Below, piece after piece: positions 6,856 to 43,640 of a stretch of 50,456 bases of DNA. Below the pieces are notes generated by a model that ran no database searches, was not told where the DNA came from, and was given only the letters and a program-made list of their open reading frames with translations. Position numbers and translations under genes: made by a program. Position 1 is the stretch's first letter; every line of letters starts with the position of its first letter. The DNA lies in the IMG/VR virus record IMGVR_UViG_3300045135_001407, positions 1 through 50,456 of that record; one strand, 5' to 3'. This stretch comes from a virus.

Positions 6856-7137
6856 ATGAAAACATATTCAGTCCGGTATAAATTACCGGGACAACTAAGA
6901 TTTCACAAGTTAACAAACTTGGTAGAAGATGGTTATGTAAATGACCATCCAATGCGGTATTTTATAACCGCAGATAAACAAAGATATGAAATATCACTTT
7001 TAGGCGTATTTCTTTTCGACCAATCAAGGTCTGACTTTATTGAAGACTTAAATACAAGACGAGAAGAAGAAGCTAGAGAAGAGCTGGTAATTGATGAAGA
7101 GGAAGTCATTCCTGGAGTAAAACGACCAGATGAATGA
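6856..7137 (+). CDS. Hypothetical protein with acidic C-terminus (93 aa)
   Basis: ATG 6856 follows AGAGGG at the usual distance. The N-terminal 60 residues (YSVRYKLPGQLRFHKL, then RYFITADKQRYEISL) look like a small beta domain; the last 30 are highly charged and acidic (RREEEAREELVIDEEEV). No family recognised. The end overlaps the start of the downstream oxygenase by eight bases, so the two are probably translated together. Confidence 0.75.
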   Translation: MKTYSVRYKLPGQLRFHKLTNLVEDGYVNDHPMRYFITADKQRYEISLLGVFLFDQSRSDFIEDLNTRREEEAREELVIDEEEVIPGVKRPDE

Positions 7138-7717
7138 TCTCGTAATAGTAGAGAACGCACTTCCAGAAGAGAGTTGTGATTTTCTATCAAAGTTCTGTGA
7201 AAAGTATCCTCAAGCTTTTGTAAATCCTTTTCAAACAATTGAGGCATTTAAAGATAGGACAGTAGCTTATAAAAATATACGTGGAGCAACTGAAACTCCT
7301 TATAATACTGTTTCATCGGTATTAAACTACTCTAGGTTTTTAGGACAACGTGAGATAAACACATTTTATCAAGATCATTGTTTTCCAGAAAACACAGAAC
7401 TTACAGTCTGGAGACAGGGACAAGATATGTCTCCTCATGCTGATAATTGTTGGCAACCAGATGTAGACGAAGAAATTAAAAAAACAAAGCATCCCACTAG
7501 ATTTAGATCATATTCTGGTATATTTTATCTAAATGATACATTTATAGGCGGTGATATATACTTTGTAAATTTAAATTATAGATTAAAACCAAAGAAAGGC
7601 ATGTTCGTAGGGTTTAAAGCTGGCCTTGAACACACTCATCAAGTCCTACCTATAGAGTCGGGTAACCGCTACACTATTGCTATTTGGTACTCTAATATGA
7701 TAGAGTATGCGGAGTAG
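7130..7717 (+). CDS. 2OG-Fe(II) oxygenase, prolyl-4-hydroxylase type
   Basis: A 195-residue protein of the size of a single double-stranded beta-helix dioxygenase. The iron ligands are visible as H103 and D105 (MSPHADNCW) and a distal His, probably H170 (EHTHQVLPI), followed ten residues later by R180 (GNRYTIAIW), the usual 2-oxoglutarate carboxylate partner. The spacing is typical of the P4H-like superfamily, which hydroxylates protein side chains or other substrates using 2-oxoglutarate, O2 and Fe(II). The substrate cannot be read from sequence. Phages of marine bacteria often carry such genes; here it lies between fibre and packaging genes, and a second, different member lies at 25454-26044. 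Confidence 0.88.
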   Translation: MNDLVIVENALPEESCDFLSKFCEKYPQAFVNPFQTIEAFKDRTVAYKNIRGATETPYNTVSSVLNYSRFLGQREINTFYQDHCFPENTELTVWRQGQDMSPHADNCWQPDVDEEIKKTKHPTRFRSYSGIFYLNDTFIGGDIYFVNLNYRLKPKKGMFVGFKAGLEHTHQVLPIESGNRYTIAIWYSNMIEYAE

Positions 7718-11601: not shown

Positions 11602-14600
11602 ATGGAAAAAATGTTTCATGTATACAGCCCATTAACGGTTGAGAAACGTGCTCCTAAAAAGAAGAAAGGTCTAGTTATTGCAGGTTATGCTAACACCACC
11701 GATAAAGATCGAGCGGGTGATATCATTACTGCCAATGCATGGGCTAAAGGCGTTGATTATTATCGCAAAAATCCTGTTCTTCTTTATCAACACGATCATA
11801 ATAAACCAATTGGGCGTGTTCAAAAGATTTCTGTAGATCGTAAAGGTATTTTTGTTGAGGCATATGTTAGTGACGCAGCAGAAAAACTTCACGGTGTACA
11901 AACACTTATTAATGACGGAGCTTTAAAGAGCTTTTCTGTAGGGTTCCGCGTTAAGGATGGTCGCTATGATCGGAATACAGACACAACACAAATTACTGAT
12001 GTAGAACTTCACGAAATTAGTGTTGTATCCGTTCCTTGCAACCAAGAAAGCTTATTCAGTGTTAGAAAAAGTTTTGAATCTAACGATGAATATGAAGCCT
12101 TTAAGAAGAGTCTCAAAGAGGCTAGTCTAAAAGACGAAGTGAAAATGATGGAAGGCATTTATGTCGGAATAACTGGTAACAAAGCTGGTCATTATCATAC
12201 TATGGAAATGGATGATAGTGGCAATGGTGTTACTACCTATTCCTCTCATGGCCAAAAGCATTATCACAAAATTGTGAATTATACCATTGAAGAAGCAGAA
12301 GGGCACGGTCATGAAATTGTGTTCTTAGTTCAACCTTCTAACAATGTTGATTCACCTGATAAGACAGATGGAGAAGCCCGTCCCATGTCTCCTAGTGAGA
12401 CTGAGGCAAACGGTGGGTCTAAAAATCCTAACTACTCATCTGTTACTCTATATTCTGAAGAGGAGAATACTATGACTAAAGACGTTGAAACAAACGAGAC
12501 AGAAGAAGTCATTGTTGCTGCCGCTGAAGAAGAAGAGAAGGAAATTATTAAGGAAGTCAATCTTGCTGAAGACGTAGACATTGAGAAACTATCTGAGGAA
12601 GATGATGATGAAGAGGATGTAACCCTTTCATCTGATCCTTATGAGCCAATTCCTTTTGTTAATCTTCTTAGTGCAGAAACCGCACAAATTAAAAATGGTG
12701 CTTTTGTAAAAAGTGAGGGTAAAAGGTATCAGACTGTAAAAATTGCTACTGCCCAAAACCCTATTTTTCAATTTTTAGAAGTTGACTTAAACGGAAAATC
12801 ATTAGATAATACAGTTACAATCCCTGCTGAAAATTTATCAGTAGCGAATTTTTGGGACATCGGATCACAATTTGATTTAGATGTTTCAGTAACAGAATTT
12901 AAAAGTCTAAGTGATGGAGAAAGAGCTTCAATTAAAGAAGATTTTGAAAACCTAGTCACACTTTCTGAACAAGAGCTTTATGCAGTAAAAGATAACGAAG
13001 CTGTTAAAAATAGTGAACTTTTACAGGAAAAGCTGAATAAAACAATTAACTTAACCACTGTCCCATCCACAGAATGGAATGATACAAACTACCACATTGC
13101 TAAAATGATGATTAATAACATCGAAAAGCTTAAGAGTATTGACTGCAACGATGGCGAAGAGACTTCCAAGGATCTAGCCTTATTAGTAAACGGTCATAAG
13201 ACTACTAAGACTATAAAGGAGAATGAAACAATGGCAACCGAAAATGCAGGTGATCCAATTGTACTAGAGACTGAAAAGGCTGCTCCTGCAACTGAAACAG
13301 TTGTAGAAAAGGCCGCAGAGGAAGTCTCCAGTGTAAAAGTTGGAGAAAACAACACAGAAAAGCTAGTTGAAAAGACTGGTGAAGCTGTTCTAAAAGAAGC
13401 CGACGAAGTTGACCGCCACGGTGAATCAACCCGTCAAACTCGTGAAGAACTTGATGAACTCAAGTCTCAGATCGCAAAATATAAAGACGAGATTAAAGCA
13501 ATCTCTGAAAGCAAGCATGTCTATCAGGCTCAGAAGACTTCAAGCAAGTATTCTGAGAAAGAAATGGCTAATGCTTTCCTACTTGCTAAGGCTCTCAATC
13601 GTCGTGACCCATTTGATACTAAACTCGGTAATCAGATTAAGGCCGTCACCTCAGTTGATCAGTTCCTAAGCAACTTCTCAACAAATATCTACGAAGAAAT
13701 GGAGCAGCAGCTCGTTATTGCTCCTATGTTCGATAGAATCCAGGTCGATGCGAAGACATTCCGTGTCCCCGTAGCCGATGAGGATACCGACGATCAGGTA
13801 GCACAATTCGCTTCTGGCACATATGCCACAGGCGTTGGTGATACCACAAACGTCCCAACCTCAAACCAGAACGCAATTAAGTCAGTAGACTTTACCCCAC
13901 ACAAGTTCATGGTTACAACCCATCTTGCCAAGGACGAAGAAGAGGATACAGTTCTTCCTCTAATCGACTTCCTCCGTCGCGCAGCAACCCGTCGTCTATC
14001 ACGGTCAATTGATAAGGCAATCCTTCGTGGTACTGGTGCTCTTACAGGCTTCACAGCTAACCCAGGTGGCACATCAACTTATGCCTCTGTTGTTAAGGGT
14101 ATTACCACAATGGTTAACCAAGTTGCTACAGACGGTCTATCAGTTCGCACCGCCGATGGTGATACAAAGGCTTCTGCCGCAAATATCGCATCAGCTCGCG
14201 CTCTTATGGGCAAATATGGTCTACAGCTTGGTGATCACCTCGTATACCTCACCACAATTGAAGGTTACAACGAGCTAGTCACAACTTCAGACTTCCGCAC
14301 AGTTGACAAGTTTGGTCCAAACGCAACATACCTCACAGGTTCTGTTGGTGCAATCTATGGTATTCCAGTTGTTATTACTGAATTCCTTGATAACGTTGGT
14401 TCAAACTCAGCCGACATCGGTGCTCTAGTCTACAAGCCAGGCTGGATGATCGCAGAACGACGTGGTATGGAGATCGAGAGCGAGTACGAACCCCGCCAGC
14501 AGGTCACAGCGATGTATATGAGCACACGCTTTGACTTCAAGGCTCTCTCAACCACTGGCTCAGGCGCAGGTGCAAACGTTTCAACCACCTACGGCTACGC

Positions 14601-14625
14601 TGCAACAATTAGAACCCTTGCCTAA
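11602..14625 (+). CDS. Prohead protease / scaffold / major capsid protein fusion
   Basis: One uninterrupted 1007-codon frame. Residues about 1-165 are an HK97-type (U35-like) prohead protease: GYANTTDKDRAGD, LLYQHDHNKPIGRV with the catalytic His region, and the Ser strand GALKSFSVGFRV. A His-rich insert (about 183-245; GHYHTMEM, KHYHKI, GHGHEI) follows. Next come a highly acidic segment (about 300-345) and an unknown domain of about 200 residues. From about residue 544 there is an Ala/Glu/Val coiled-coil stretch (REELDELKSQIAKYKDEI) like the HK97 delta domain, then the HK97 capsid fold from about 655 to 1007. Two in-frame internal ATGs with good ribosome sites (12472 and 13231) suggest that scaffold-capsid and capsid forms are also made. 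Codons become C-rich in the capsid part, as expected for the most abundant product. Confidence 0.9.
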   Translation: MEKMFHVYSPLTVEKRAPKKKKGLVIAGYANTTDKDRAGDIITANAWAKGVDYYRKNPVLLYQHDHNKPIGRVQKISVDRKGIFVEAYVSDAAEKLHGVQTLINDGALKSFSVGFRVKDGRYDRNTDTTQITDVELHEISVVSVPCNQESLFSVRKSFESNDEYEAFKKSLKEASLKDEVKMMEGIYVGITGNKAGHYHTMEMDDSGNGVTTYSSHGQKHYHKIVNYTIEEAEGHGHEIVFLVQPSNNVDSPDKTDGEARPMSPSETEANGGSKNPNYSSVTLYSEEENTMTKDVETNETEEVIVAAAEEEEKEIIKEVNLAEDVDIEKLSEEDDDEEDVTLSSDPYEPIPFVNLLSAETAQIKNGAFVKSEGKRYQTVKIATAQNPIFQFLEVDLNGKSLDNTVTIPAENLSVANFWDIGSQFDLDVSVTEFKSLSDGERASIKEDFENLVTLSEQELYAVKDNEAVKNSELLQEKLNKTINLTTVPSTEWNDTNYHIAKMMINNIEKLKSIDCNDGEETSKDLALLVNGHKTTKTIKENETMATENAGDPIVLETEKAAPATETVVEKAAEEVSSVKVGENNTEKLVEKTGEAVLKEADEVDRHGESTRQTREELDELKSQIAKYKDEIKAISESKHVYQAQKTSSKYSEKEMANAFLLAKALNRRDPFDTKLGNQIKAVTSVDQFLSNFSTNIYEEMEQQLVIAPMFDRIQVDAKTFRVPVADEDTDDQVAQFASGTYATGVGDTTNVPTSNQNAIKSVDFTPHKFMVTTHLAKDEEEDTVLPLIDFLRRAATRRLSRSIDKAILRGTGALTGFTANPGGTSTYASVVKGITTMVNQVATDGLSVRTADGDTKASAANIASARALMGKYGLQLGDHLVYLTTIEGYNELVTTSDFRTVDKFGPNATYLTGSVGAIYGIPVVITEFLDNVGSNSADIGALVYKPGWMIAERRGMEIESEYEPRQQVTAMYMSTRFDFKALSTTGSGAGANVSTTYGYAATIRTLA
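12461..12474 (+). promoter_or_regulatory. Internal ribosome site and ATG inside the protease-capsid gene (scaffold start)
   Basis: AGGAG at 12461-12465 is followed six bases later by an in-frame ATG at 12472 (residue 291 of the fusion). Translation from here would give a protein starting MTKDVETNE that lacks the protease and begins with the acidic scaffold-like segment. Confidence 0.55.
13216..13233 (+). promoter_or_regulatory. Internal ribosome site and ATG inside the protease-capsid gene (capsid start)
   Basis: AAGGAG at 13216-13221 is followed nine bases later by an in-frame ATG at 13231 (residue 544). It would start a 464-residue protein (MATENAGDP...) consisting of a delta-like coiled coil plus the capsid fold, close to the size of a normal HK97-type capsid precursor. 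Confidence 0.6.
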
Positions 14626-14957: not shown

Positions 14958-16256
14958 ATGTCTAGCAATTATGGTAAATATCCATATGTAACTTTAGCAC
15001 AGATAAAAAATTATCTAAATATTACAAGCTCTAATGAAGATGCTAGACTCAGCAATCTTATTTCTTTTGCTTGTGGTGCGGTAGAAAATTACATTGGACA
15101 CGAAGTTCTAAGTAATTCTTATTCAGAAGTTTTTGATGGCGGAAAGTCTTCAGTTTTTGTTTCCCGACTTCCCTTACAAAATGTACACTCTATTTCTGAA
15201 TATGATGGTACTGCTTACAGAAAATTAAATAACCCACAATCAGACGGATCTTCAGTAACTCGAATTGATTCAAACCATACTTTAACTCGCAGTGGAGGAC
15301 CCGTCTTAAAAACTAGATATAAAAAGTTCGGGGACTCCTCTGTGTTTTTTGACGGCTCTGATGATTTTATATTTTTAGCAGATTCAAATGACTGGTATTT
15401 TGGAGATTCCGATTTTACTATTGATATGCAAGTGAGATCAAATTCTTACTCTGCAAATACTACTTTTATTTCACAAGCTGCAGATGCAGATAATCTTTGG
15501 TCCCTCGGTTATGATACTACAAATGGCTTTACATTTAGAGCAGTGTTTGGAGGTACTGAGGTTGTAAATGTAACACACGCAGCATCAACTGGTTACTCAG
15601 CTAATACTTTTCATCATGTAGAAATCGTAAGATCAGGCTCTTCTTGGAACTTGTACAGAGATGGAACTTCTATCGCTTCACAAACTACTTCTAATGTAAT
15701 GCCTGACATTTCTGCTCAATTAGAATTTGCTCGTCAGAACGTGACTTCTAGTTATAAATATTTTAATGGTTTTATTGATGAAACTCGTATTTCTCATGTA
15801 GCAAGACACACTTCTGCTTTTACTGCTCCTTCTTATCAACATGCGACAGATGATGACACTGTTTTACTAGTTCATTTTGATGGTGCTAATGATAACTCTG
15901 ATTTTGCTGATGATCATGCTTCTGTAGAAGACTTTTTATTCTACCCTAATACTGGTGAAGTTACCAAGAATATTGGAGATGGAACAGGAGACTTCGGTCT
16001 TACAATTGTAGGGGCTGCTGTATTTAAAAACTATCCTCGTGGAGTCCGTGTAACTTATAAATCTGGGTATGACTCTGGCAGTGTTCCTAATGACCTTTTA
16101 ATGGCTACTATGGATTATGCTAAAATGCTTCATAAAGACCGTCAAGAATCTCAAGGTTTCACTTTTCAAGGAGAGAACGTACAGGATAGACAGTTAAGTT
16201 CTAATTTTCCCCCTCATATCCGGCGTATTTTAGATTTATATAGAGTGATCATTTAA
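14958..16256 (+). CDS. Head-tail connector (gp6-like) with inserted LamG-like domain
   Basis: The first ~85 residues (YVTLAQIKNYLNITSSNEDA, then ISFACGAVENYIGH and LPLQNVHSISEYDG) and the last ~110 (FLFYPNTGEV, YPRGVRVTYKSGYDSGSVP, and a final helix with ATMDYAKMLHKDR) together make a complete adaptor of the HK97 gp6 / SPP1 gp15 kind, which docks on the portal. Between them, residues about 125-320 form a concanavalin/LamG-like jelly roll (SVFFDGSDDFIFLADS, DFTIDMQVR, FHHVEIVRSGSSWNLYRDG, GFIDETRIS). The insertion lies at a beta hairpin of the adaptor, so both halves can still fold. GGGGTGAG precedes the ATG. The inserted domain may display a glycan-binding surface at the neck (inference). Confidence 0.85.
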   Translation: MSSNYGKYPYVTLAQIKNYLNITSSNEDARLSNLISFACGAVENYIGHEVLSNSYSEVFDGGKSSVFVSRLPLQNVHSISEYDGTAYRKLNNPQSDGSSVTRIDSNHTLTRSGGPVLKTRYKKFGDSSVFFDGSDDFIFLADSNDWYFGDSDFTIDMQVRSNSYSANTTFISQAADADNLWSLGYDTTNGFTFRAVFGGTEVVNVTHAASTGYSANTFHHVEIVRSGSSWNLYRDGTSIASQTTSNVMPDISAQLEFARQNVTSSYKYFNGFIDETRISHVARHTSAFTAPSYQHATDDDTVLLVHFDGANDNSDFADDHASVEDFLFYPNTGEVTKNIGDGTGDFGLTIVGAAVFKNYPRGVRVTYKSGYDSGSVPNDLLMATMDYAKMLHKDRQESQGFTFQGENVQDRQLSSNFPPHIRRILDLYRVII

Positions 16257-18104: not shown

Positions 18105-19358
18105 ATGTCGGCCCAACTTAACCTACAAAGAAACACAAAAGTGTTTATGTCCACCGTTGATATCGCCAGCGGTGCCGAAGTAACAGCCTTGACTCCTGCA
18201 AACACATGGCAAGTAGAAATTCTTGCTGGTTATGCTGTTTCACAGGCTGCTGCAACTCAGGATATTACATCACTCGAAAGTGGTCTAACACCTGATCGTT
18301 CACAACAAAGATTTAATACTGCCCTAAACCCAGTTGACTGGAACTTCCAGGCCTATCTAAAGCCAACAGGTCTTACAAAGACCGCAGGTGGTTCAAATAA
18401 GGCTGCTGAAGGTAATTCTATGCCTTGTGCTGATTGGTTTATGTGGCAAGCACTAATGAGTAATACTGCTTTTGCTTCTGGATCAGCACTTCAGAGTACT
18501 TGGCAGGCTGATGGTAAATTTGCACTTAGCGAACGAGCTGCTGGATCAAATGTATTCCAGCATTCCTCTAACTTCGCTACTGCAGTTGAATACCATCTAT
18601 ACTTTAAAATGGATAACGTTTTTTATCAGGTTTCTAACGCTACTGTTAACCAAGGTTCTGTTGATGCCGCAATTGATGGCATTGCTACGACCACTTGGAC
18701 AGGATTCGGAACAAACTTGATTGAGCTTCGCGATGATAAACGAAACAATGCTGTTTCTGTATTCGGCGGAACTCTAAATGCTGGTACAGATGTAACAGCC
18801 AACTCTAACCAGTATGCAATGACAGCTGAAGCTTCATATCATCCTTGGAACTCTTATAATGTTTCTGGCACAATTTCATCAGCCAGCTTCATTAAGAATA
18901 GACTTTCAACAATTGATGTTAAGCACGCTGAGAGTGCAACTGCAGCAGGGGTTGACTTTACATTCCCAGTTACAGCACTCAGTTTTGATTACAATAACAA
19001 CATCACATACTTAACACCAGAAGAACTAGCAGCTCTTAACTCACCAATTGGTCAGTTTGCCGGTGCTCGTGCAATTTCTGGATCTCTAAGTGCATACTTA
19101 CGTGGTGGCTCAGATAACTCAGCTCAGTTCTTGAAGCAGATTGTTGAAGATGGTCGTACCTCTTCTGCAGCTACTTCTAACGCTAACCTTAAAATTGGCG
19201 GCGCAACTGCACCATTCTTTTCCATTAATATGCCGAGAGTTCAGTTCGAACTTCCAGTTCATGCTATTGAAGATGTGATTGGTGTTTCTGTCAACTTCCT
19301 TGCCCAAGAAACAACTAAGGGTACTGGAGATGAAATGACACTTATTGTAGAAAAGTAA
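18105..19358 (+). CDS. Major tail (tube) protein
   Basis: A 417-residue protein with a good AAGGAG site before ATG 18105. The sequence is beta-rich and Ala/Ser/Thr/Asn-rich, with NLQRNTKVFMSTVDIASG at the N-terminus, WNFQAYLKPTG in the first sheet and FDYNNNITYLTPEEL later, as in tube proteins of long-tailed phages. Codon choice is more C-ending than in neighbouring genes, as also seen in the capsid part, which suggests very high expression. Its length (larger than the usual 150-250) implies an added outer domain. Order after the tail terminator and before the chaperones supports the assignment. Confidence 0.82.
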   Translation: MSAQLNLQRNTKVFMSTVDIASGAEVTALTPANTWQVEILAGYAVSQAAATQDITSLESGLTPDRSQQRFNTALNPVDWNFQAYLKPTGLTKTAGGSNKAAEGNSMPCADWFMWQALMSNTAFASGSALQSTWQADGKFALSERAAGSNVFQHSSNFATAVEYHLYFKMDNVFYQVSNATVNQGSVDAAIDGIATTTWTGFGTNLIELRDDKRNNAVSVFGGTLNAGTDVTANSNQYAMTAEASYHPWNSYNVSGTISSASFIKNRLSTIDVKHAESATAAGVDFTFPVTALSFDYNNNITYLTPEELAALNSPIGQFAGARAISGSLSAYLRGGSDNSAQFLKQIVEDGRTSSAATSNANLKIGGATAPFFSINMPRVQFELPVHAIEDVIGVSVNFLAQETTKGTGDEMTLIVEK

Positions 19359-19391
19359 ATTAAATGAACTTTGAGGGGGTAAAATTTAATT
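19358..19391 (+). ncRNA. Upstream hairpin with G-rich loop in the tail tube 3' UTR
   Basis: AATTAAAT (19358-19365) pairs with ATTTAATT (19384-19391), exposing a loop that contains GAGGGGG (19373-19379). This G-run is exactly complementary to CCCCCTC (19429-19435) in the apical loop of the next hairpin, so the two can form a kissing loop. The pairing is seen directly in the sequence; whether the RNA folds this way is inference. Confidence 0.5.
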
Positions 19392-19397
19392 CCATGT

Positions 19398-19478
19398 GGG
19401 TGCTCACTATTAACAAACGTCAAACTTGCCCCCTCAGTTTGACAGGCGTTGAAAGCTATAGTGAGCACCCTTTTTATT
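19398..19478 (+). terminator. Long two-tier hairpin terminator after the tail tube gene
   Basis: GGGTGCTCACTAT (19398-19410) and ATAGTGAGCACCC (19458-19470) form a perfect 13-bp stem followed by TTTTTATT. Inside it GTCAAACT (19419-19426) pairs with AGTTTGAC (19436-19443) around a nine-base loop holding CCCCCTC. This is far larger than needed for termination in such a compact genome. It ends the tail tube unit and would reduce read-through into the chaperone and tape measure genes. Confidence 0.85.
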
Positions 19479-19498
19479 AATATAGAGGGGAAAAATAA

Positions 19499-19969
19499 AT
19501 GAGTAAAATCTCAAACTTAATGGCTAAGGAAACAGTAATTGACGTAGAGTTTCCTGATATTGAAGGTTTTGTAGTTAACCTAGTTTATCTTGGTCGAGAC
19601 GACCTAATGAAGATTAGAAATGCAAGTCTTACATACAAATTTAATAAGCGCACTCGTCAACGAGAAGAAGAAATTGATAACGATAAGTTTATTGAAGAAT
19701 ATGCTCGTAGAGCTATTAAAGGATGGAGCGGTCTTAAAGTAGGCTCTCTTCCAAAACTTCTTCCAGTAGATATTAGCGCTATGGATAAAGATGAGGCAGT
19801 AGACTATTCAGAAGAAGATGCACTTGATCTTCTACAAAATTCTACTATTTTTGATCAGTTTGTTACTGATGCCATGAATGACTATGAACAATTTTCGATT
19901 AGTAAAAAGGCTGAAGACGCAAAAAACTCGAAAAGTACCTCCGGCACAACTTCCAAGCAGGGGGAATGA
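19499..19969 (+). CDS. Tail assembly chaperone (gpG-like)
   Basis: A 156-residue protein beginning after GAGGGG. It has a beta-rich first half (VIDVEFPDIEGFVVNLVYLG), a helical part (DKFIEEYARRAIKGW) and a Ser/Lys/Thr-rich disordered tail (KNSKSTSGTTSKQGE). Position before the tape measure and the overlapping next frame match the G/GT chaperone pair of long-tailed phages, which hold the tape measure during tube assembly. A run of five G at 19960-19964, next to the stop, may allow a -1 shift into the following gene. Confidence 0.8.
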   Translation: MSKISNLMAKETVIDVEFPDIEGFVVNLVYLGRDDLMKIRNASLTYKFNKRTRQREEEIDNDKFIEEYARRAIKGWSGLKVGSLPKLLPVDISAMDKDEAVDYSEEDALDLLQNSTIFDQFVTDAMNDYEQFSISKKAEDAKNSKSTSGTTSKQGE

Positions 19970-20011
19970 CCCAGGACCAGTATCTGTTAATGTGTGAACA
20001 GATGGGCTGGG
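19960..20011 (+). other. Candidate -1 ribosomal frameshift site between the chaperone genes
   Basis: The first chaperone ends CAG GGG GAA TGA. The G-run 19960-19964 lets a GGG-decoding tRNA slip back one base and re-pair perfectly, entering the frame of the next gene. Five bases downstream, CCCAG (19970-19974) can pair with CTGGG (20007-20011), enclosing a second stem CTGTT (19984-19988) with AACAG (19997-20001). Re-initiation at the overlapping ATG 19966 is an alternative. Confidence 0.5.
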
Positions 20012-20289
20012 ATCCTAACCCTGATGAAATGCCGCCAGAGGTACATGATTTAAGTTATGAAGCACAACAAGCGTTAAGACTATTTAACGCATTACCTGAC
20101 AAAATAGAAGGTATGAATGGTATATGGTTAGGTAAAGATTACGCAGGTCTAGGAGACATAATGCGTATATATAAAATCGACGACAGTGAAGAAGTTTTTG
20201 ATCTTCTTCAAGTTTGTGTTGTAGAAGCTGCTACTCATTACGAGCAACAACGTAAAGCTAGAGAAGCTGCTTCAAAGGTGAAACGCTAG
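19966..20289 (+). CDS. Tail assembly chaperone, T-like part
   Basis: A 107-residue frame overlapping the end of the gpG-like gene by four bases (ATGA). The sequence (QYLLMCEQMGWDPNPDEMPP, then YEAQQALRLFNALPDKIEGMNG and a final helix) has the small helical form expected of the T part of a G/T pair, which recruits tail tube subunits. It may be made as a -1 frameshift fusion, as an independent protein, or both. Its stop TAG shares a base with the GTG start of the tape measure gene. Confidence 0.75.
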   Translation: MTQDQYLLMCEQMGWDPNPDEMPPEVHDLSYEAQQALRLFNALPDKIEGMNGIWLGKDYAGLGDIMRIYKIDDSEEVFDLLQVCVVEAATHYEQQRKAREAASKVKR

Positions 20290-23200: not shown

Positions 23201-25457
23201 AGCTAGAATTGAAGACGCTGACCGTAGAGCTAGATTAAGGCTGTCTGAGCAATCTCAGATTCAGAGTGCTTTCTCTAATCTATTCTCTGATGCAGATAGA
23301 CGAGCACTAGAGCGAAAAGGTCTAGAACTGGATGTCACAAAAGCTGAAAAACTTTTAGAAGAGCAGAAAAGACTATCTCAAAAAGAAATAGAAACAGCTA
23401 AAAAGATATTTACTGAAAGAAAAGCTATTGCAGAACTAGAGTTTCAAAAAGGTAAAGCACTATTAGACCTTCGCAAGAAAGAAATTCAAGAAAATCAACG
23501 TGCTGCTCAAGCAGAGTTAGATGCTCTTAAGAATCGTGGTACGAAAGGTTTAGAGGCAGATAAAACAGATCGAATAAAGATAGCTAACGAAACAAAAGCA
23601 GCTGCTATCGCACAGGCAGAGGCAGCAAAACAATCTCGTGATCTTCAGATAGAGAAAATAAAAGCTGACGCCGACTTCTTGTTAATTCAAGTAGAAGCTC
23701 TTGAGAAGCATCCTGAAGCTATGAGAACTGTATTTAATGGGTTCTTAGTTGGATTTGATAAAATTGTATCTAGAATGCCTGGGGCTACAGCATCTGGGGG
23801 TGCTCCTCAGATCGAGGCTACTACAACTAGTACTAATAATCTTGCAGAAAGAGCTAGAAAATTAGTAGACTCTGCTAATACAGCAGAGTCTACCTCTGAA
23901 GCTATCTTTAAGACACAGACAAAATTAGCAGAAGATGCTGCTACTCAGTCAATAGCAGAAGCAGAGAGACAGTTTAAAAATGAAAAGGCTAATCTAGAAA
24001 ATAGAAAGAAGATTCTTCAAAACAATTTAGATATAGAAAAAGAAAGGCTAAAAGCATTACAAATAGAAGGTCAAATACTAGAGCAAACAAAAAAATCTAG
24101 TATTGCTTCCGCTACCAGAGAAAGAGATTTAGCGATTGCAAACTCTAAAGATAAAGTAGCTGCCGCAGAACGAGAGGTAAATGCTGCTAAAGAAGCGATT
24201 GCATCTTTTGATAAACTATCCGAAATTTTAGGAGACAAGCTAGTTAAAGTTGCTAACAAAGTTGCTGGTATTATAGGCGATAATCTAGCCGATGGTATGG
24301 ATAAACTGTTAGACGCTATTAATGACGGAACTCTGACTATGGATAACTTTAAGCAAGGCTTTAAAGACATGGTGAGAAAGATTCTTGCAGATACTCAAAA
24401 GGCTTTTATGGAAGAGTTTGTCTTACAACCTGTAAAAGATTTTATCGGAGGATTTATTAGAGATTTAGTCTTACCTGATGCTAAATTAGAAGAGGCTAAA
24501 AAGTTTGAAACACTAGCACAAAGTATTAATGAAGGTAATGAAAATGTGGCTAAAGTAACAGGCGATGCTCTTCAAAAGCAGTCACAGACCCTTACTGAAG
24601 TTTTTGGATCAGTTACTAATGTAATGATCGTTGGTCAAACAGGACCTGTTCTAGTTACTACTTCTGGAGCTGGGCTAGGACCACAAGGAGTACTTGGACA
24701 AGCTGGAGCAGATAGAGATGTTCTAAAACAGTCTGATGCTAATATATTTGCCGAAGAAGATGATTTTGGAGGACTATTAGCAGAAACAGGAGATGCTTCT
24801 AAAGGTTTAGGTAATAGTCTTGTAGGAACCACAGAGGCTGTTGCAGGAACTACTGGTGGATTTAACTTACTAAACGGAAAAATTCCCTTACTAAATATGA
24901 GTATTATGGACGTAATCGGTAAACTAGGAGATTTTGGCTCTGGTTTGGTGAAGTCTATTGGAAGCCTATTCTCTGGCATCCTTGGCGGTGGCGGCGCTGG
25001 AGGAGGCGGAGGACTATTTGGAAGTATATTCAGTGGTATTAGTGGTTTCTTTGGTGGCGGTGGCGCAGCTGCTACTGCACCTGCAGCAAGCTCTTTAATG
25101 GGTATTGGTGCAGCTGGCGGTATACTTGTGGCTAGTGGAGGATTAATTAGACAGATGAACTCTGGTGGAACGGTCATGAGAGACCGTGTTCCAGCTTTAC
25201 TAGAGCCAGGTGAGTTTGTGATGAGAAAGAGTGCTGTTGATGCAGCAGGACTTCCCGCTATGCAAGCTATGAATTCTGGAAAGTCTCAACAAAATAATAT
25301 GCCCCCTGTTAAAGTTCAAGTTGAAAATACTGGTCAACCAAAAGAAGCGCAGGCCGATACAAAAATGGACGGGGAAGCAATGATTATTAAAATCATAACA
25401 AAAGATTTAAACTCTAATGGACCTATCAGAAGGAGTATTAGACAGAACGCTAGATGA
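20289..25457 (+). CDS. Tape measure protein
   Basis: A 1722-residue protein with GTG start in a TAGTG overlap. The N-terminus is Ala/Gln-rich helical (SIRNIIETMFVTKGAEKAA), followed by a hydrophobic segment (residues about 255-285, GLVASALGPFIELI...SVGLVGGLVFG) and another near 435-455. The middle is long Lys/Glu-rich coiled coil (about 560-1400). The end has a Gly-rich stretch and the motif VPALLEPGEFVMRKSAV, frequent near the C-terminus of tape measures. It spans the tail lumen and sets tail length; at about 0.15 nm per residue (rule of thumb) it predicts a tail near 260 nm. No peptidoglycan hydrolase motif is evident. The next gene overlaps by four bases (ATGA). Confidence 0.93.
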   Translation: MASIRNIIETMFVTKGAEKAATSTQNVTKAQTRLGQASASAGRQFSAQSAGLGGLVAAYAGAAANVFAITQAFSALQRASRAEATIAGTRTLAAAVGESADSIIGNLRKITQGQLSIAQAAEVANFQLSSGFDSKQIEGLALVAVKASKALGRDLTDSLSRLSRGVAKIEPEILDELGIIVRLDDAVKKYALSIGKASSDLTTFERSQAFANAVIEQGTDKYAAIDEKASSTIKTFEQLSAQVQDLITQIGGLVASALGPFIELISGNFLNVLASVGLVGGLVFGKLGQVAKEGLSNAGASIERVGQSVSNFFDKTGGQGAAKLTASLKKVDLSFKGLTGQLAGLTQKERLAAQGLLKLAKDGNITAAQMKQLDVILKKNTGTLTTLEKAALAASKGVQGLGRAALFASKTASFAGKAFSLAAKGVNLFIGAISKIFFVVSIIQLISSTLGKLIFGVDPLVGAGKKVQEFFEKFRQGAQKAKVAAEAVTSATQQMSGLGDVLSQITTSQERRGQFSFIFGSGEASPEEVRARLTKISNAFQKTLQTIDKLSDPRQVSTGTAMLQRMGIVDTSGVRQRLREITREVSQMDLDGAEKRAEILRRIAPVIQKASIEGQIAAVKKEYRNLDDVILQKFKATLEKQAEIARKNKGLEESVRDSQTAAGQLARQFVENYFTAVGDGTAVAGTKLQEVFQSLGNQYEKTDEAAAQFVDSLALLNIQLGKDKTIDGAAQIAQFAVKLEAGTMSTEQLSKAINILGKELEKAENTANGATGAIEALIFAAKEQQAIKAIGDQFDKLFPPDALKQGAQFVMITKESIRLARTEREVREASVRSLVELTKYEGDNNVLKDRARKSLESLARRYPQLTSEIDKQEKALEKLNKQLTQQLDTLRGQLTIQSAENAIKNRANAIKDEESALKRTTDLNKSNLALEKERVRVANLKLDLQIAQKREKIEELKYELQLEQLESSRIKARIEDADRRARLRLSEQSQIQSAFSNLFSDADRRALERKGLELDVTKAEKLLEEQKRLSQKEIETAKKIFTERKAIAELEFQKGKALLDLRKKEIQENQRAAQAELDALKNRGTKGLEADKTDRIKIANETKAAAIAQAEAAKQSRDLQIEKIKADADFLLIQVEALEKHPEAMRTVFNGFLVGFDKIVSRMPGATASGGAPQIEATTTSTNNLAERARKLVDSANTAESTSEAIFKTQTKLAEDAATQSIAEAERQFKNEKANLENRKKILQNNLDIEKERLKALQIEGQILEQTKKSSIASATRERDLAIANSKDKVAAAEREVNAAKEAIASFDKLSEILGDKLVKVANKVAGIIGDNLADGMDKLLDAINDGTLTMDNFKQGFKDMVRKILADTQKAFMEEFVLQPVKDFIGGFIRDLVLPDAKLEEAKKFETLAQSINEGNENVAKVTGDALQKQSQTLTEVFGSVTNVMIVGQTGPVLVTTSGAGLGPQGVLGQAGADRDVLKQSDANIFAEEDDFGGLLAETGDASKGLGNSLVGTTEAVAGTTGGFNLLNGKIPLLNMSIMDVIGKLGDFGSGLVKSIGSLFSGILGGGGAGGGGGLFGSIFSGISGFFGGGGAAATAPAASSLMGIGAAGGILVASGGLIRQMNSGGTVMRDRVPALLEPGEFVMRKSAVDAAGLPAMQAMNSGKSQQNNMPPVKVQVENTGQPKEAQADTKMDGEAMIIKIITKDLNSNGPIRRSIRQNAR

Positions 25458-26044
25458 TAGAAAAAATATTTTCAGCTTCTATTGGTCTTTATAATTTAGA
25501 AATAAATAATAACCAAATACTAAATAATTTAAAAAAGTTAGAGACTAATCCTCATTCTTTAATTTATAATGGCTATAGTAGTTTGAAAACTGGAGATGAA
25601 ACACTTCTAGAGCTAGAAGAATTTTTAGAATTAAAAAAGCTTATTGCAGATTGTTGTATTAACTATTGTGATAAGATGAAAATTTCCAAAGTTTCTATAA
25701 CTAATAGTTGGTTTAATAAACTGGGGCAAGGGGGAGAAGTTTTAAAACACAACCACCCTCACAGTATTGTTAGTGGTGCTTACTATCCTTTTTATGAAGA
25801 AAACCACTCCCCTCTGACCTTATTAAACCCTGACAATTTTGAAGAATATAGGGAAATAAGTGATCAAATAACTATTGTTCCAAAAACTAATTTGTTAGTT
25901 GTTTTCCCCAGTTATTTAAATCATTTTGTAACGCCTACCAAGGCAAAAGAAAGATATACTATTAGCTTTAACACAACTGCGCTAAAAGTAAAAGAAATAG
26001 AAGAAAGAAGATTGAACTTAAAATGGAGAACACTACGGAGATAA
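25454..26044 (+). CDS. Second 2OG-Fe(II) oxygenase, in the tail module
   Basis: A 196-residue protein. The segment SWFNKLGQGG, then HNHPHSIVSGAYY (H101, H103), FPSYLNHFVTP (H157) and KERYTISFN (R167) reproduces the signature of a 2OG-Fe(II) oxygenase family common in marine phages, in which the first sheet carries a His-x-His/SGxYY element. It differs from the P4H-like enzyme at 7130 and is not a recent duplicate. It is coupled to the tape measure by ATGA and lies directly before tail-tip genes, so it is transcribed with them. Substrate unknown; a tail protein is a reasonable but unproven candidate. Confidence 0.85.
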   Translation: MIEKIFSASIGLYNLEINNNQILNNLKKLETNPHSLIYNGYSSLKTGDETLLELEEFLELKKLIADCCINYCDKMKISKVSITNSWFNKLGQGGEVLKHNHPHSIVSGAYYPFYEENHSPLTLLNPDNFEEYREISDQITIVPKTNLLVVFPSYLNHFVTPTKAKERYTISFNTTALKVKEIEERRLNLKWRTLRR

Positions 26045-27025: not shown

Positions 27026-28737
27026 TGTCTGGTCGGCTTTACGATTATATTATAACAGTAGCAGATGCTTCTGATTTTGAAAACGGAAATACTTTATTAG
27101 GACTAACTTCTAAAGCGTTTGGTTATATTTCTAATGTTGATACCGCTACTAATAATCTTAAAGTTAAAATGTCAAACTTATTTCAAGAGTATAACGTAAG
27201 TGAAACTGTTACTAGTAATCATTATTTAATTTCTAATGTCTTATCAGTTCAGTCTTTTTCTTCTACTGCTACTTCAAATGAGTTTACTTTAACTGGCGAT
27301 ACTATCCCGGTAGCTAATACCGAATTAGACATATTTGTAGAGGGCAGATATCGACACGAAACTGACTGGTATTTTGAGTCTCCTAAAGTTGTTTTTAGAG
27401 ACTTTGCTCTGCCAGGTGCTAACACAGTTCTAGTTAGAAGACAAACAGGTAACACAGAAGCTAGAACTTATCAAGCCTCTGCTACTCAATTTGGTAATAC
27501 ACAAATAAGTGCTACTTCAACAGTTAGTGCTATTAATAATAGTCCTTTCATAGCTACCTTAAACTCTTATACACAACCTCCTATTGTTAGACTTATAGAT
27601 ATTTATTACCCTGGGGAGTGGTATCCTCCTAATAAGCAAGGTAATCCAAGCGGTTCAGGAGAGGGTTATTCTTGGCCTACTGATATGCCAATTAGAATTG
27701 CAGAAGTGATTGGAGATTTTTACTCTGATCTACAATATAATGTTTCTTTTGGTTCACAAAGTTATATTCCCTACCCAGTAGAAGTAGATGGAATTAACAC
27801 TTCTTCTGACGGTACTATTGACCGTGTGACTTTTACAATGTCTAACTATGATAATTTAATTACTGTTTTTGTTGAGAATCCTTATTTAGTAGGAAATGTT
27901 ACTTCTAACTCTGCTCAAGGGTATGTTAACGGAGAATTAGTTTATGGCCTTGATCCTAGAACTGTTACAGGTAATACTCACTTTGATCAAACAGTTGTAG
28001 ATACAGTTTATGGAAAAGTTAATTCTGCGTGGACTTATGATGAAGCTGTTAAAGAAGGCGAAACATGGAGAAATTTAAAAGCAGACAGTAGAGATTTGTT
28101 AGGAGCGGTGGTAGAGATTAGAACTACATTTGCTTCTCATTTACGTTACTGGCCTGAACACTCAAAATTAGATTTTGTAAACGCTAACGTGGTATCTGTT
28201 TTAAATGGTGGCCCTTACAGAGTTGGAGATAATGTTAAAACAGAGACTTCTTCTACTGTTCAAATTAGTGATATTCAAGAAGATAGAATATTCTTTTTAT
28301 CAGATAATTTAGACGGAGGAGTACTTAATCAAAACTTATATGTTGTTAATGATGACCATGATGAGGAGGCGTATATAAAAGACACTTTTAAAATTACTGC
28401 TTTAAGAGGCTTAGATCAAGAAAAAGCAGAGTTTGAATTAACAAGCTGGTTACAATATTTTAAACTACAACTTCCTAAAAGGAAATATTATAAAAATACC
28501 TGTCAATGGGTGTACAAAGGCTCTGAGTGTCAATACCCAGGACCCGGAGAGCTTACAATTCCCGGTACTTTTCCTGAGAAAAAATCTAATGCGGACCCAA
28601 TATTTGCTAATAATGTATTAGCTGTCTCTGATGCAGATGATGAGTGTGGTAAATCTTATGAAGCTTGTCGTATTAGAAATAATACAATTCATTTTGGAGG
28701 GTTCCCAGGAACAGGAAGGCAGATACCTAAACAATAA
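27025..28737 (+). CDS. Minor tail protein L-like, with four-cysteine Fe-S type end
   Basis: A 570-residue protein. The N-terminal ~380 residues are beta-rich and not recognised beyond the phage tail-tip style. The C-terminal ~140 residues match lambda gpL: a beta part (DTFKITALRGLDQEKAEFEL) followed by C493 (NTCQWVYKG), C502 (ECQYPG), C541 (DECGKS) and C548 (YEACRIRNN), then HFGGFPG. In lambda gpL this four-cysteine region binds an iron-sulfur cluster, and the same ligands are present here. A radical SAM gene follows immediately by TAATG. Confidence 0.87.
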   Translation: MSGRLYDYIITVADASDFENGNTLLGLTSKAFGYISNVDTATNNLKVKMSNLFQEYNVSETVTSNHYLISNVLSVQSFSSTATSNEFTLTGDTIPVANTELDIFVEGRYRHETDWYFESPKVVFRDFALPGANTVLVRRQTGNTEARTYQASATQFGNTQISATSTVSAINNSPFIATLNSYTQPPIVRLIDIYYPGEWYPPNKQGNPSGSGEGYSWPTDMPIRIAEVIGDFYSDLQYNVSFGSQSYIPYPVEVDGINTSSDGTIDRVTFTMSNYDNLITVFVENPYLVGNVTSNSAQGYVNGELVYGLDPRTVTGNTHFDQTVVDTVYGKVNSAWTYDEAVKEGETWRNLKADSRDLLGAVVEIRTTFASHLRYWPEHSKLDFVNANVVSVLNGGPYRVGDNVKTETSSTVQISDIQEDRIFFLSDNLDGGVLNQNLYVVNDDHDEEAYIKDTFKITALRGLDQEKAEFELTSWLQYFKLQLPKRKYYKNTCQWVYKGSECQYPGPGELTIPGTFPEKKSNADPIFANNVLAVSDADDECGKSYEACRIRNNTIHFGGFPGTGRQIPKQ

Positions 28738-29912
28738 TGGCAATAAAAGGATGTATATTACCTTGGATTCATTTACATGGTAATATGAGAGGGGAGTATA
28801 AAGCCTGTTGCTTTTCAGATTCTTTTTCAAATAAAGATTCTTTAGGAGATAATACACAACCTATTATGGATGTGTGGCATGGAACTCCATACATAGAATT
28901 AAGAAAATCTTTTTTAGAAGGGAAAATACCAGAACAGTGTTATAATCCTTGCTTTAAAAAAGATGAGTTAGGTGTTTATGAAAATCCAAAGAATAACGCT
29001 AACAATTTTTGGAAGCATAAAGAATACCTACAAAAAACCCTTACCCCTCCTCCCCCTCCTTATATAGATTTTAGAGTAGGAAATACTTGTAATTTTAGGT
29101 GCAGAACTTGCGGTCCTGCTTCTAGTACTGCTTGGATAAAAGAAGGTAAAAATTTATTTTCAATTCAAGGTAAAAAAGAGGAGCGGTGGGATAATGATTT
29201 GTTTTGGGAAGGATTAGAGTTAATATATCCTAATTTAGAAGTTTTATATTTTGCAGGAGGAGAGCCTTTAGTATTAGAGCAACATTATAAAATACTGGAG
29301 TACTTAATTTCTAAGGGTAAAACTGATATAAATGTTCAGTATAACACTAACCTATCTATTTTAAAATTTAAAGAATATGATCTTTTAGATTTATGGAAAA
29401 AATTTAAAAAAGTAAACTTGTGGACTAGTTGTGATGGGTATAAAAACGTATCAGAGTATGCTAGAAAAGAATTAGTGTGGGAAGATTTTGAGAATAACGT
29501 AGAAAAAGTTAGACCTTATGTCACTACTATTAGTTCTGTAGTGTCAATTTTAACTATATACTCTATGCCTGACTTACTTTTGTGGGGAAAAAGAAAAAAT
29601 ATTCCTGTATTTGGAACCACATTAGTTACTCCATCATATTATTCTCTACAAATATTACCTGAAAATGAAAAAAGAAACATTTTATTATATTATAAAAATT
29701 TTATAGAAAATAATAAAAAAGATTTACATATGTCGGATATACGTCATATGTCTGACTGGTTAAAATATATGAAAGGAGAACTACCTGATAAAGAAAAATT
29801 ATCTTCTCTGTTTAAGAAAAATACTGGACTATTAGATAGAAACAGGAATGAAAATTTTACTGACGTAGTTCCTCAGTTAGCAGATTGGTATAATGGACTT
29901 ACGGTACAATAA
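28737..29912 (+). CDS. Radical SAM protein with N-terminal twitch/SPASM-like cysteines
   Basis: A 391-residue protein. The radical SAM cluster motif is CNFRCRTC (C118, C122, C125; CX3CX2C), followed by a GGEPL SAM-binding motif (YFAGGEPLVL). N-terminal to it lies a CX..CC..CX3C set (C6 in GCILPWIHLHG, C24/C25, C68 and C72 in CYNPC), the auxiliary-cluster style domain that precedes the core in this phage-associated family. Such enzymes modify peptides or small molecules by radical chemistry. The gene is wedged between L-like and K-like tail genes, coupled by TAATG upstream and a 20-base overlap downstream. Substrate unknown. Confidence 0.88.
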   Translation: MAIKGCILPWIHLHGNMRGEYKACCFSDSFSNKDSLGDNTQPIMDVWHGTPYIELRKSFLEGKIPEQCYNPCFKKDELGVYENPKNNANNFWKHKEYLQKTLTPPPPPYIDFRVGNTCNFRCRTCGPASSTAWIKEGKNLFSIQGKKEERWDNDLFWEGLELIYPNLEVLYFAGGEPLVLEQHYKILEYLISKGKTDINVQYNTNLSILKFKEYDLLDLWKKFKKVNLWTSCDGYKNVSEYARKELVWEDFENNVEKVRPYVTTISSVVSILTIYSMPDLLLWGKRKNIPVFGTTLVTPSYYSLQILPENEKRNILLYYKNFIENNKKDLHMSDIRHMSDWLKYMKGELPDKEKLSSLFKKNTGLLDRNRNENFTDVVPQLADWYNGLTVQ

Positions 29913-42659: not shown

Positions 42660-43640
42660 ATGCGAAAATATAGGCAAATAACTACTGAATTAACTTTTAG
42701 ATGTAATGCAAAGTGTCCTGCGTGTCATCGTTTAAAACCTCTAAGAATAAATTTAAATGATGAGCAGTATACATATACATTAGATAGATTTAAACAAATC
42801 TTTTATCCAGAGTTTTTAGAACAACTTGACTGGATTGTTTTAAACGGTAATTTTGGAGACTCTATTATGAACAAAGAGTTTCGTGAAATTATTACATATG
42901 TTAAGAAGTATGGAACTCGTTTAAATATTCATACTAACGGTGGTATACATGGCTCAGACTATTGGACTGATGTAGGAAATATTTTAACGTCAGATGATAT
43001 TATTAATTTTGATTTAGATGGTTTAGAAGATACACACTCTATTTACAGAATTAATACTAGGTTTGAAAATGTATTTAATAATGCTCGTTCTGTTATAGCA
43101 ACTAACCGACCACAAGTACATTGGAAATATATAGTTTTTGAACATAATAAACACCAAGTAGAAAAGGCTAAAGAACTAGCTATCTCAGAGGGTTTTCATT
43201 CTTTTTCTACTGTTAAAACTGGTCGTGATTTTGCAGCACCAAAATCTGGAGATTATGTTCATGCTAAAAAGAAAACAGACTTATCTTCTATCCCAAAACA
43301 AATTATATGTTCGTGGGAAGAATGGGGAAAGTGGTATGTTGCTCCAAATGGTCTAGTATTTAGATGTTGTTGGACAGGAGCACACTACTTTGATAAAAGT
43401 AATGATAGATTTTATTATCTAGATGATATGGAAGAAAAGTTTAATGCTACGAAGATTCCTTTAGAAACTATTATATCATATGAATACTGGAATAAATTAA
43501 AAGCATATTTACAAGGATATGATAGAAGTTTTAAACTTTGTAAGTCTCAGTGTGGAAAATTATTGAGTAGTAGAGAAAAGATTGAAGAGAATTTAACTAC
43601 TGGAGAAAAGACTGTATTTGAAGCTGGGCTTGGAACTTAA
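42660..43640 (+). CDS. Second radical SAM protein with C-terminal SPASM-like cysteines
   Basis: A 326-residue protein starting after GAGGGA. The cluster motif is CNAKCPAC (C15, C19, C22; CX3CX2C) at the extreme N-terminus, in the usual core-first order. A C-terminal set (C217 in ICSWEEWGKWYVAPNG, CC at 236-237, and CKSQC near residue 300) resembles a SPASM/twitch auxiliary cluster domain. SPASM radical SAM enzymes often act on peptides. It is a different architecture from the enzyme at 28737. It directly follows a large fibre gene with only ten bases between, so it is co-transcribed with fibres. Confidence 0.85.
   Translation: MRKYRQITTELTFRCNAKCPACHRLKPLRINLNDEQYTYTLDRFKQIFYPEFLEQLDWIVLNGNFGDSIMNKEFREIITYVKKYGTRLNIHTNGGIHGSDYWTDVGNILTSDDIINFDLDGLEDTHSIYRINTRFENVFNNARSVIATNRPQVHWKYIVFEHNKHQVEKAKELAISEGFHSFSTVKTGRDFAAPKSGDYVHAKKKTDLSSIPKQIICSWEEWGKWYVAPNGLVFRCCWTGAHYFDKSNDRFYYLDDMEEKFNATKIPLETIISYEYWNKLKAYLQGYDRSFKLCKSQCGKLLSSREKIEENLTTGEKTVFEAGLGT

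Follow-up and report, generated by a model that had tools for sequence, protein, structure and literature searches.

A conserved kissing-loop RNA element between the tail tube and tail chaperone genes of a phage family

In siphophages a single operon yields tube protein in large excess over the tape measure and the tail chaperones, a difference usually ascribed to the strength of start sites and to frameshifting. The viral DNA analysed here (50,456 nucleotides, referred to in full as the window) raises the question of whether an RNA structure also has a part in setting this ratio, as two hairpins with mutually complementary loops stand directly behind its tube gene. A preliminary description made from the letters of the window had read them as a possible kissing-loop RNA that could set the tube to downstream ratio, protect the 3' end of the tube mRNA or yield a stable small RNA. 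The source is, we infer, an uncultured T5-related siphophage, an assignment based on the matches of its tube protein (~30% identical to T5-family tube proteins) and its terminase (41% identical to that of Pectobacterium phage My1). The junction is laid out as follows, and the genes 3' of the element encode the tape measure in addition to two tail chaperones.

18105-19358, + strand: major tail (tube) protein gene (PHROG_3575, major tail protein, E 6e-52)
19356-19358, + strand: tube stop codon, TAA
19358-19391, + strand: hairpin P0, with arms at 19358-19365 and 19384-19391 and a loop that holds GAGGGGG (19373-19379)
19398-19470, + strand: arm P1-P2-P3, with a 3' bulge at 19452-19457
19427-19435, + strand: apical loop L3, TGCCCCCTC, whose CCCCCTC is complementary to the P0 loop
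19471-19478, + strand: U-rich tract TTTTTATT after P1, intrinsic-terminator-like
19484-19490, + strand: Shine-Dalgarno region of the chaperone gene, AGAGGGG, the third copy of the motif, complementary to L3
19499-19969, + strand: tail assembly chaperone ORF 1 (PHROG_313, E 2e-17)
19966-20289, + strand: tail assembly chaperone ORF 2 (PHROG_3914, E 7e-16)

Two hairpins with complementary loops

When the window was re-read, every coordinate and sequence given in the preliminary description proved correct. GAGGGGG (19373-19379) and CCCCCTC (19429-19435) are exact complements placed in two hairpin loops, and the 13-bp outer stem, the 8-bp inner stem and the run of TTTTTATT at 19471-19478 are all present. 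P0 is an 8-bp A-T hairpin with an 18-nt loop and starts on the tube stop codon, while the arm that follows is built from the 13 bp of P1 (19398-19410 / 19458-19470) and the 8 bp of P3 (19419-19426 / 19436-19443), the latter capped by a 9-nt apical loop. A middle helix, P2 (TAAC 19411-19414 / GTTG 19448-19451), which comes with a conserved 3' bulge, had been missed, and the complement between the loops in fact extends to 8 bp (TGAGGGGG/CCCCCTCA). The G-C-rich complementarity had been considered unlikely to be accidental in an AT-rich genome, and shuffling agrees: at a spacing of 25-90 nt the window holds three G-C-rich 8-mer complement pairs, two of which fall inside the element, whereas dinucleotide-shuffled sequences contain 0.25 on average. 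Single-sequence folding of the window element was of moderate significance (z -2.2), by a method that cannot score the loop-loop helix (hereafter the kiss).

Conservation and covariation among relatives

Tube-protein searches of IMG/VR, together with one motif scan, yielded 256 usable loci, which were reduced to 98 distinct downstream sequences by dropping duplicates and seven T5-like records; these relatives were chosen independently of the motifs, save for a few that entered via the motif scan alone. All 98 carry GAGGGG and then CCCCTC directly 3' of the tube stop, the first motif lying 11-29 nt (median 17) past the first base of the stop codon and the second 49-69 nt beyond the first. With a covariance model, the window and every family locus searched yield a single copy each, always at the tube/chaperone junction, the exception being L024, where a marginal opposite-strand match (E 0.78) overlaps the locus's own element. 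The element is not a feature of the T5-family (Demerecviridae) tail operon as seen in the seven T5-like records: the model finds no copy there, and in most of them the next gene directly abuts the tube gene. Rfam gave no covariance-model match for the window at gathering thresholds, nor for four relatives at E<=0.5. Likewise, blastn against cultured phages gave no match and a protein search of GTDB genomes no relatives, and searches of an open-access literature library, for the most part at the level of titles and abstracts, found no description of an element at this junction. The element defines a novel family of structured RNA, one that Rfam does not contain.

The stems were analysed in 26 divergent representatives (<82% alike). 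In these sequences the arm folds alone into a common shape, consisting of P1, a 3' bulge that is often GAUAU-like, P2, a small internal loop, P3 and L3, with a mean z of -6.5 against mononucleotide shuffles (over the 26); P1 is 11-15 bp long, compared with an average of 7.6 in shuffled sequences. In the alignment to the model, pairing in P1 reaches 99.1%, with two-sided changes at all 11 of its 11 pairs, and P0 covaries as well, with two-sided changes in 4/5 modelled pairs; a P0-like hairpin is found in the relatives at a median p of 0.02 relative to shuffled flanks. RNAalifold, applied to an unsupervised alignment, recovered both P0 and P1, with two-sided changes in 15/16 pairs. Since G-U cells far outnumber A-C cells in both helices (50:4 in P0 and 23:1 in P1), the selected molecule is the RNA of the + strand.

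The kiss behaves differently from the stems: its core of 6 bp is invariant across the 98 relatives, while the stems vary freely. Beyond the core, the first pair occurs as G-C, A-U, G-U and U-A, and the second as A-U, U-A, C-G and G-C, the latter being paired in 74/98 relatives against 40 expected. Over 45 distinct haplotypes the flanks form 157 pairs, compared with 130.8+-5.4 when partners are dealt at random (0/5000 as good), a comparison in which relatedness is partly uncorrected; a control with slid register, which retains relatedness, agrees with it, the paired cells falling from 120 to <=84. An independent count tool gave a covariation score that was reached in 0/500, with two weaker measures not significant by themselves. 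The compensatory changes between the loops, whose absence the preliminary description had named as grounds for giving up the kissing loop, are found outside the invariant 6-bp core, and the stem covariation to which it had also looked is seen in both P0 and P1. Altogether, a two-hairpin kissing-loop RNA structure is scarcely in doubt, and we regard the predicted structure and its RNA nature, judged from comparative sequence, as near certain. In some clades the outer pairs of the kiss use bases that are also paired within P0, so that there the kiss could reach its full length only at the expense of P0; this exclusion could be a strand-exchange feature of these clades, not a general one.

Predicted function and rival explanations

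A third GAGGGG (19485-19490), overlooked in the preliminary description, is the Shine-Dalgarno sequence of the chaperone gene. The same hexamer is present at 18/26 chaperone starts among the representatives, compared with 1/145 other starts at the same loci. Because the Shine-Dalgarno sequence repeats the hexamer of loop 1, L3 is complementary to two sites; the duplex of loop 1 with L3 is the stronger one in 90/98 relatives (mean -18.6 vs -12.4 kcal/mol). The flanks of the putative Shine-Dalgarno:L3 helix show no covariation (305/5000 dealings as good), and the full GAGGGG Shine-Dalgarno is missing in 8/26 representatives, among which L230, L265 and L276 carry unrelated sites. Moreover, the linkers between P1 and the motif measure 6-9 nt in some members, which makes pairing in cis sterically doubtful unless the arm bends. 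The Shine-Dalgarno copy is, to judge by its distribution, under selection, and its pairing with L3 only putative. A pure Shine-Dalgarno switch was consequently downgraded, given flanks that do not covary and a copy that is missing in several members.

The U-rich tract shows a comparable mixture of enrichment and absence. Over the 8 nt that follow P1, 63% of the bases in the 26 representatives are T, compared with 15% from there to the start codon, and the tract is poor in about 10/26, with nearly none in L295, L331, L080 and L319. Termination is not the sole conserved function, as the tract is missing in some members while P0, the kiss and P1 persist. Nor is the kiss a classical antiterminator, since neither choice of partner by L3 would disrupt P1. 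In many members the sequence likely forms a leaky terminator or a stable 3' end; a pure terminator was downgraded, the tract not being universal.

Comparative sequence supports the structure, and each functional step that follows is one that we infer. The reading that we prefer, whose chances appear evenly poised, is that of a cis-acting element of the tail-operon mRNA, which would combine a leaky terminator or 3' end with a Shine-Dalgarno competition gated by the kiss. The element would mark where the high-copy tube gene gives way to the low-copy genes for the chaperones and the tape measure. In a first layer, P1 and the U-rich tract would form a terminator that leaks, or a stable 3' end, such that most transcripts stop after the tube gene. 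In a second layer, on read-through mRNA, L3 would capture the Shine-Dalgarno sequence and hold chaperone translation down, whereas L3 would release it upon pairing with loop 1, its partner in the stronger duplex. Ribosomes terminating at the tube stop may alter the availability of loop 1 and in this way couple chaperone to tube synthesis, a proposal prompted by P0 lying at the tube stop codon or immediately 3' of it. What the element provides at this junction is probably control over the ratio of tube to downstream products, while the Shine-Dalgarno competition as a real second layer is a tentative suggestion, with the chances somewhat against it. The kissing loop of the preliminary description stands, and among the roles it offered the ratio is the best supported, through the position of the element and its recurrence in an unrelated phage (described below); protection of the mRNA 3' end is possible, given the U-rich tract, and a stable small RNA is without direct support. 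A bolder version, which we consider doubtful, is that the element represents an undescribed class of phage RNA present in at least two unrelated siphophage groups, a kissing-loop translational coupler through which ribosomes finishing the tube gene would gate chaperone synthesis, with L3 choosing between the loop behind the tube stop and the chaperone Shine-Dalgarno sequence.

The rival that survives best is a plain leaky intrinsic terminator with an exonuclease-resistant 3' end for the tube mRNA, in which the kiss merely stiffens the structure and the likeness to the Shine-Dalgarno sequence is incidental. Such a device would suit an abundant tube and scarce chaperones, and it accounts for a near-perfect P1 of 13 bp and for the U-rich tract that most members have behind it, but it needs neither an invariant loop core nor a Shine-Dalgarno copy, and several members that have no U tract still keep P0, the kiss and P1; we therefore regard it as unlikely. 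The contrast between the unvarying 6-bp loop core and the freely varying stems could instead suggest sequence-specific recognition by a protein, with the kissing fold as its recognition platform and autoregulation of the tail genes as the outcome; the tube protein, a chaperone and an RNA-binding protein of the host are examples. Feedback by proteins on their own RNA is known for other phage structural genes and offers a precedent; however, a candidate partner is lacking, and the recurrence beside an unrelated tube protein speaks against the tube protein as the reader, which leaves this explanation quite improbable. Mutually complementary loops in an RNA of ~120 nt also recall phi29 pRNA and, with it, a processed, free or oligomeric RNA whose loops pair between molecules and which acts in assembly. 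We give this very little credence, as the element occurs in one copy, always between two genes and beside a Shine-Dalgarno sequence, no convincing promoter of its own was found and pairing within the molecule is enough. Finally, a hidden small gene or a read-through extension of the tube protein is effectively refuted, since the 28-codon ORF that starts at 19394 in the window is not kept in the other representatives, the frame past the tube stop soon closes in most of them and what is conserved are base pairs.

An unrelated carrier and known systems

Pattern scans of viral contigs returned, outside the family, a single type that convincingly passes the structural filter (L183/L367/L368/L386, two contigs). 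In this GC-rich carrier the element (L183/L367/L368) comprises a 10-bp P0 with wobbles, the kiss CGAGGGGU/ACCCCUCG, a 9-bp P1, a CUGC/GCAG middle stem, a U tract and a GAGGGG Shine-Dalgarno sequence, and it is located directly 3' of the second of two tandem tail-tube-like genes and 5' of an ORF and a tape-measure-like gene. As the hexamers served as the search key, the stems and the location are the sole independent evidence here. The product of the second tube-like gene has no resemblance in sequence to the window family's tube protein. The covariance model R1 finds no match in L183 or L368, which leaves homology with the family element putative and convergence a possibility. The two tandem genes of L368 (1388-2488 and 2501-3766) encode diverged, Phage_tube_2-like proteins that are 26% identical; the second matches Phage_tube_2 weakly (E 0.006), its identification resting on its likeness to the first. 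An exact-pattern scan of GTDB gave 29 hits, which were judged to be chance or REP-like intergenic repeats, with no P0/P1 after a gene stop. Bacterial intergenic repeats (L419-L447, many of them alphaproteobacterial) mimic the motif pattern, with CTCTCCCC...GGGGAGAGGG hairpins between GAGGGG and CCCCTC. The presence of the element at the same junction in all family members examined and in an unrelated phage points to a dedicated RNA device, one that is short, self-contained and readily testable in a reporter.

Parts of this device recall known systems. Like intrinsic (Rho-independent) terminators and attenuators, it has a GC-rich hairpin (P1), followed in most members by a U-rich tract, where it adjoins a highly expressed gene; unlike them, it has a two-storey arm with a conserved bulge, a middle helix and an invariant apical loop that kisses a hairpin upstream of the arm, the U tract is missing in some members and the downstream genes are reached by read-through, as there is no room for a promoter after the element. 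The repY-repZ leader of IncI-type plasmids (ColIb-P9) shares a loop pairing near a stop codon and beside a downstream start, suggestive of ORF coupling, but differs in sequence and layout and works through a leader peptide and an antisense RNA, neither of which is seen here; this likeness is no more than an analogy. Three-segment sequestration of the Shine-Dalgarno sequence in bacterial leaders (anti-SD / anti-anti-SD) has its parallel in the hexamer common to loop 1 and the Shine-Dalgarno sequence and complemented by L3, although the pairing here is of the loop-loop or pseudoknot kind, the main stem stays intact and the Shine-Dalgarno flanks do not covary. With the packaging RNA of phi29 (pRNA) the element has in common a length of about 120 nt and a pair of hairpin loops that complement each other; in contrast, it lies inside the tail operon, gives no evidence of a free RNA or of intermolecular pairing and has no Rfam match. 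By analogy, it would in its working be most like the coupling by a stop-codon-proximal pseudoknot of repY-repZ combined with an attenuator hairpin.

The rest of the structural region offers several separate observations. Near the end of chaperone ORF 1 an in-frame slippery heptamer, A AAA AAC, is located at 19921-19927, and in most relatives AAA AAC stands immediately 5' of the stop codon; on this basis a -1 frameshift that fuses both chaperones in the style of lambda G/GT is likely. A 1007-aa ORF (11602-14625) matches both head maturation protease and major head protein families and is a probable protease-capsid fusion, while the head-tail adaptor ORF (14958-16256) contains a large inserted domain that is like those found in baseplate or virion structural proteins of other phages. 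In or near the structural module there are also two 2OG-Fe(II) oxygenase-like genes (7130-7717 and 25454-26044) and two radical-SAM-like genes (28737-29912 and 42660-43640).
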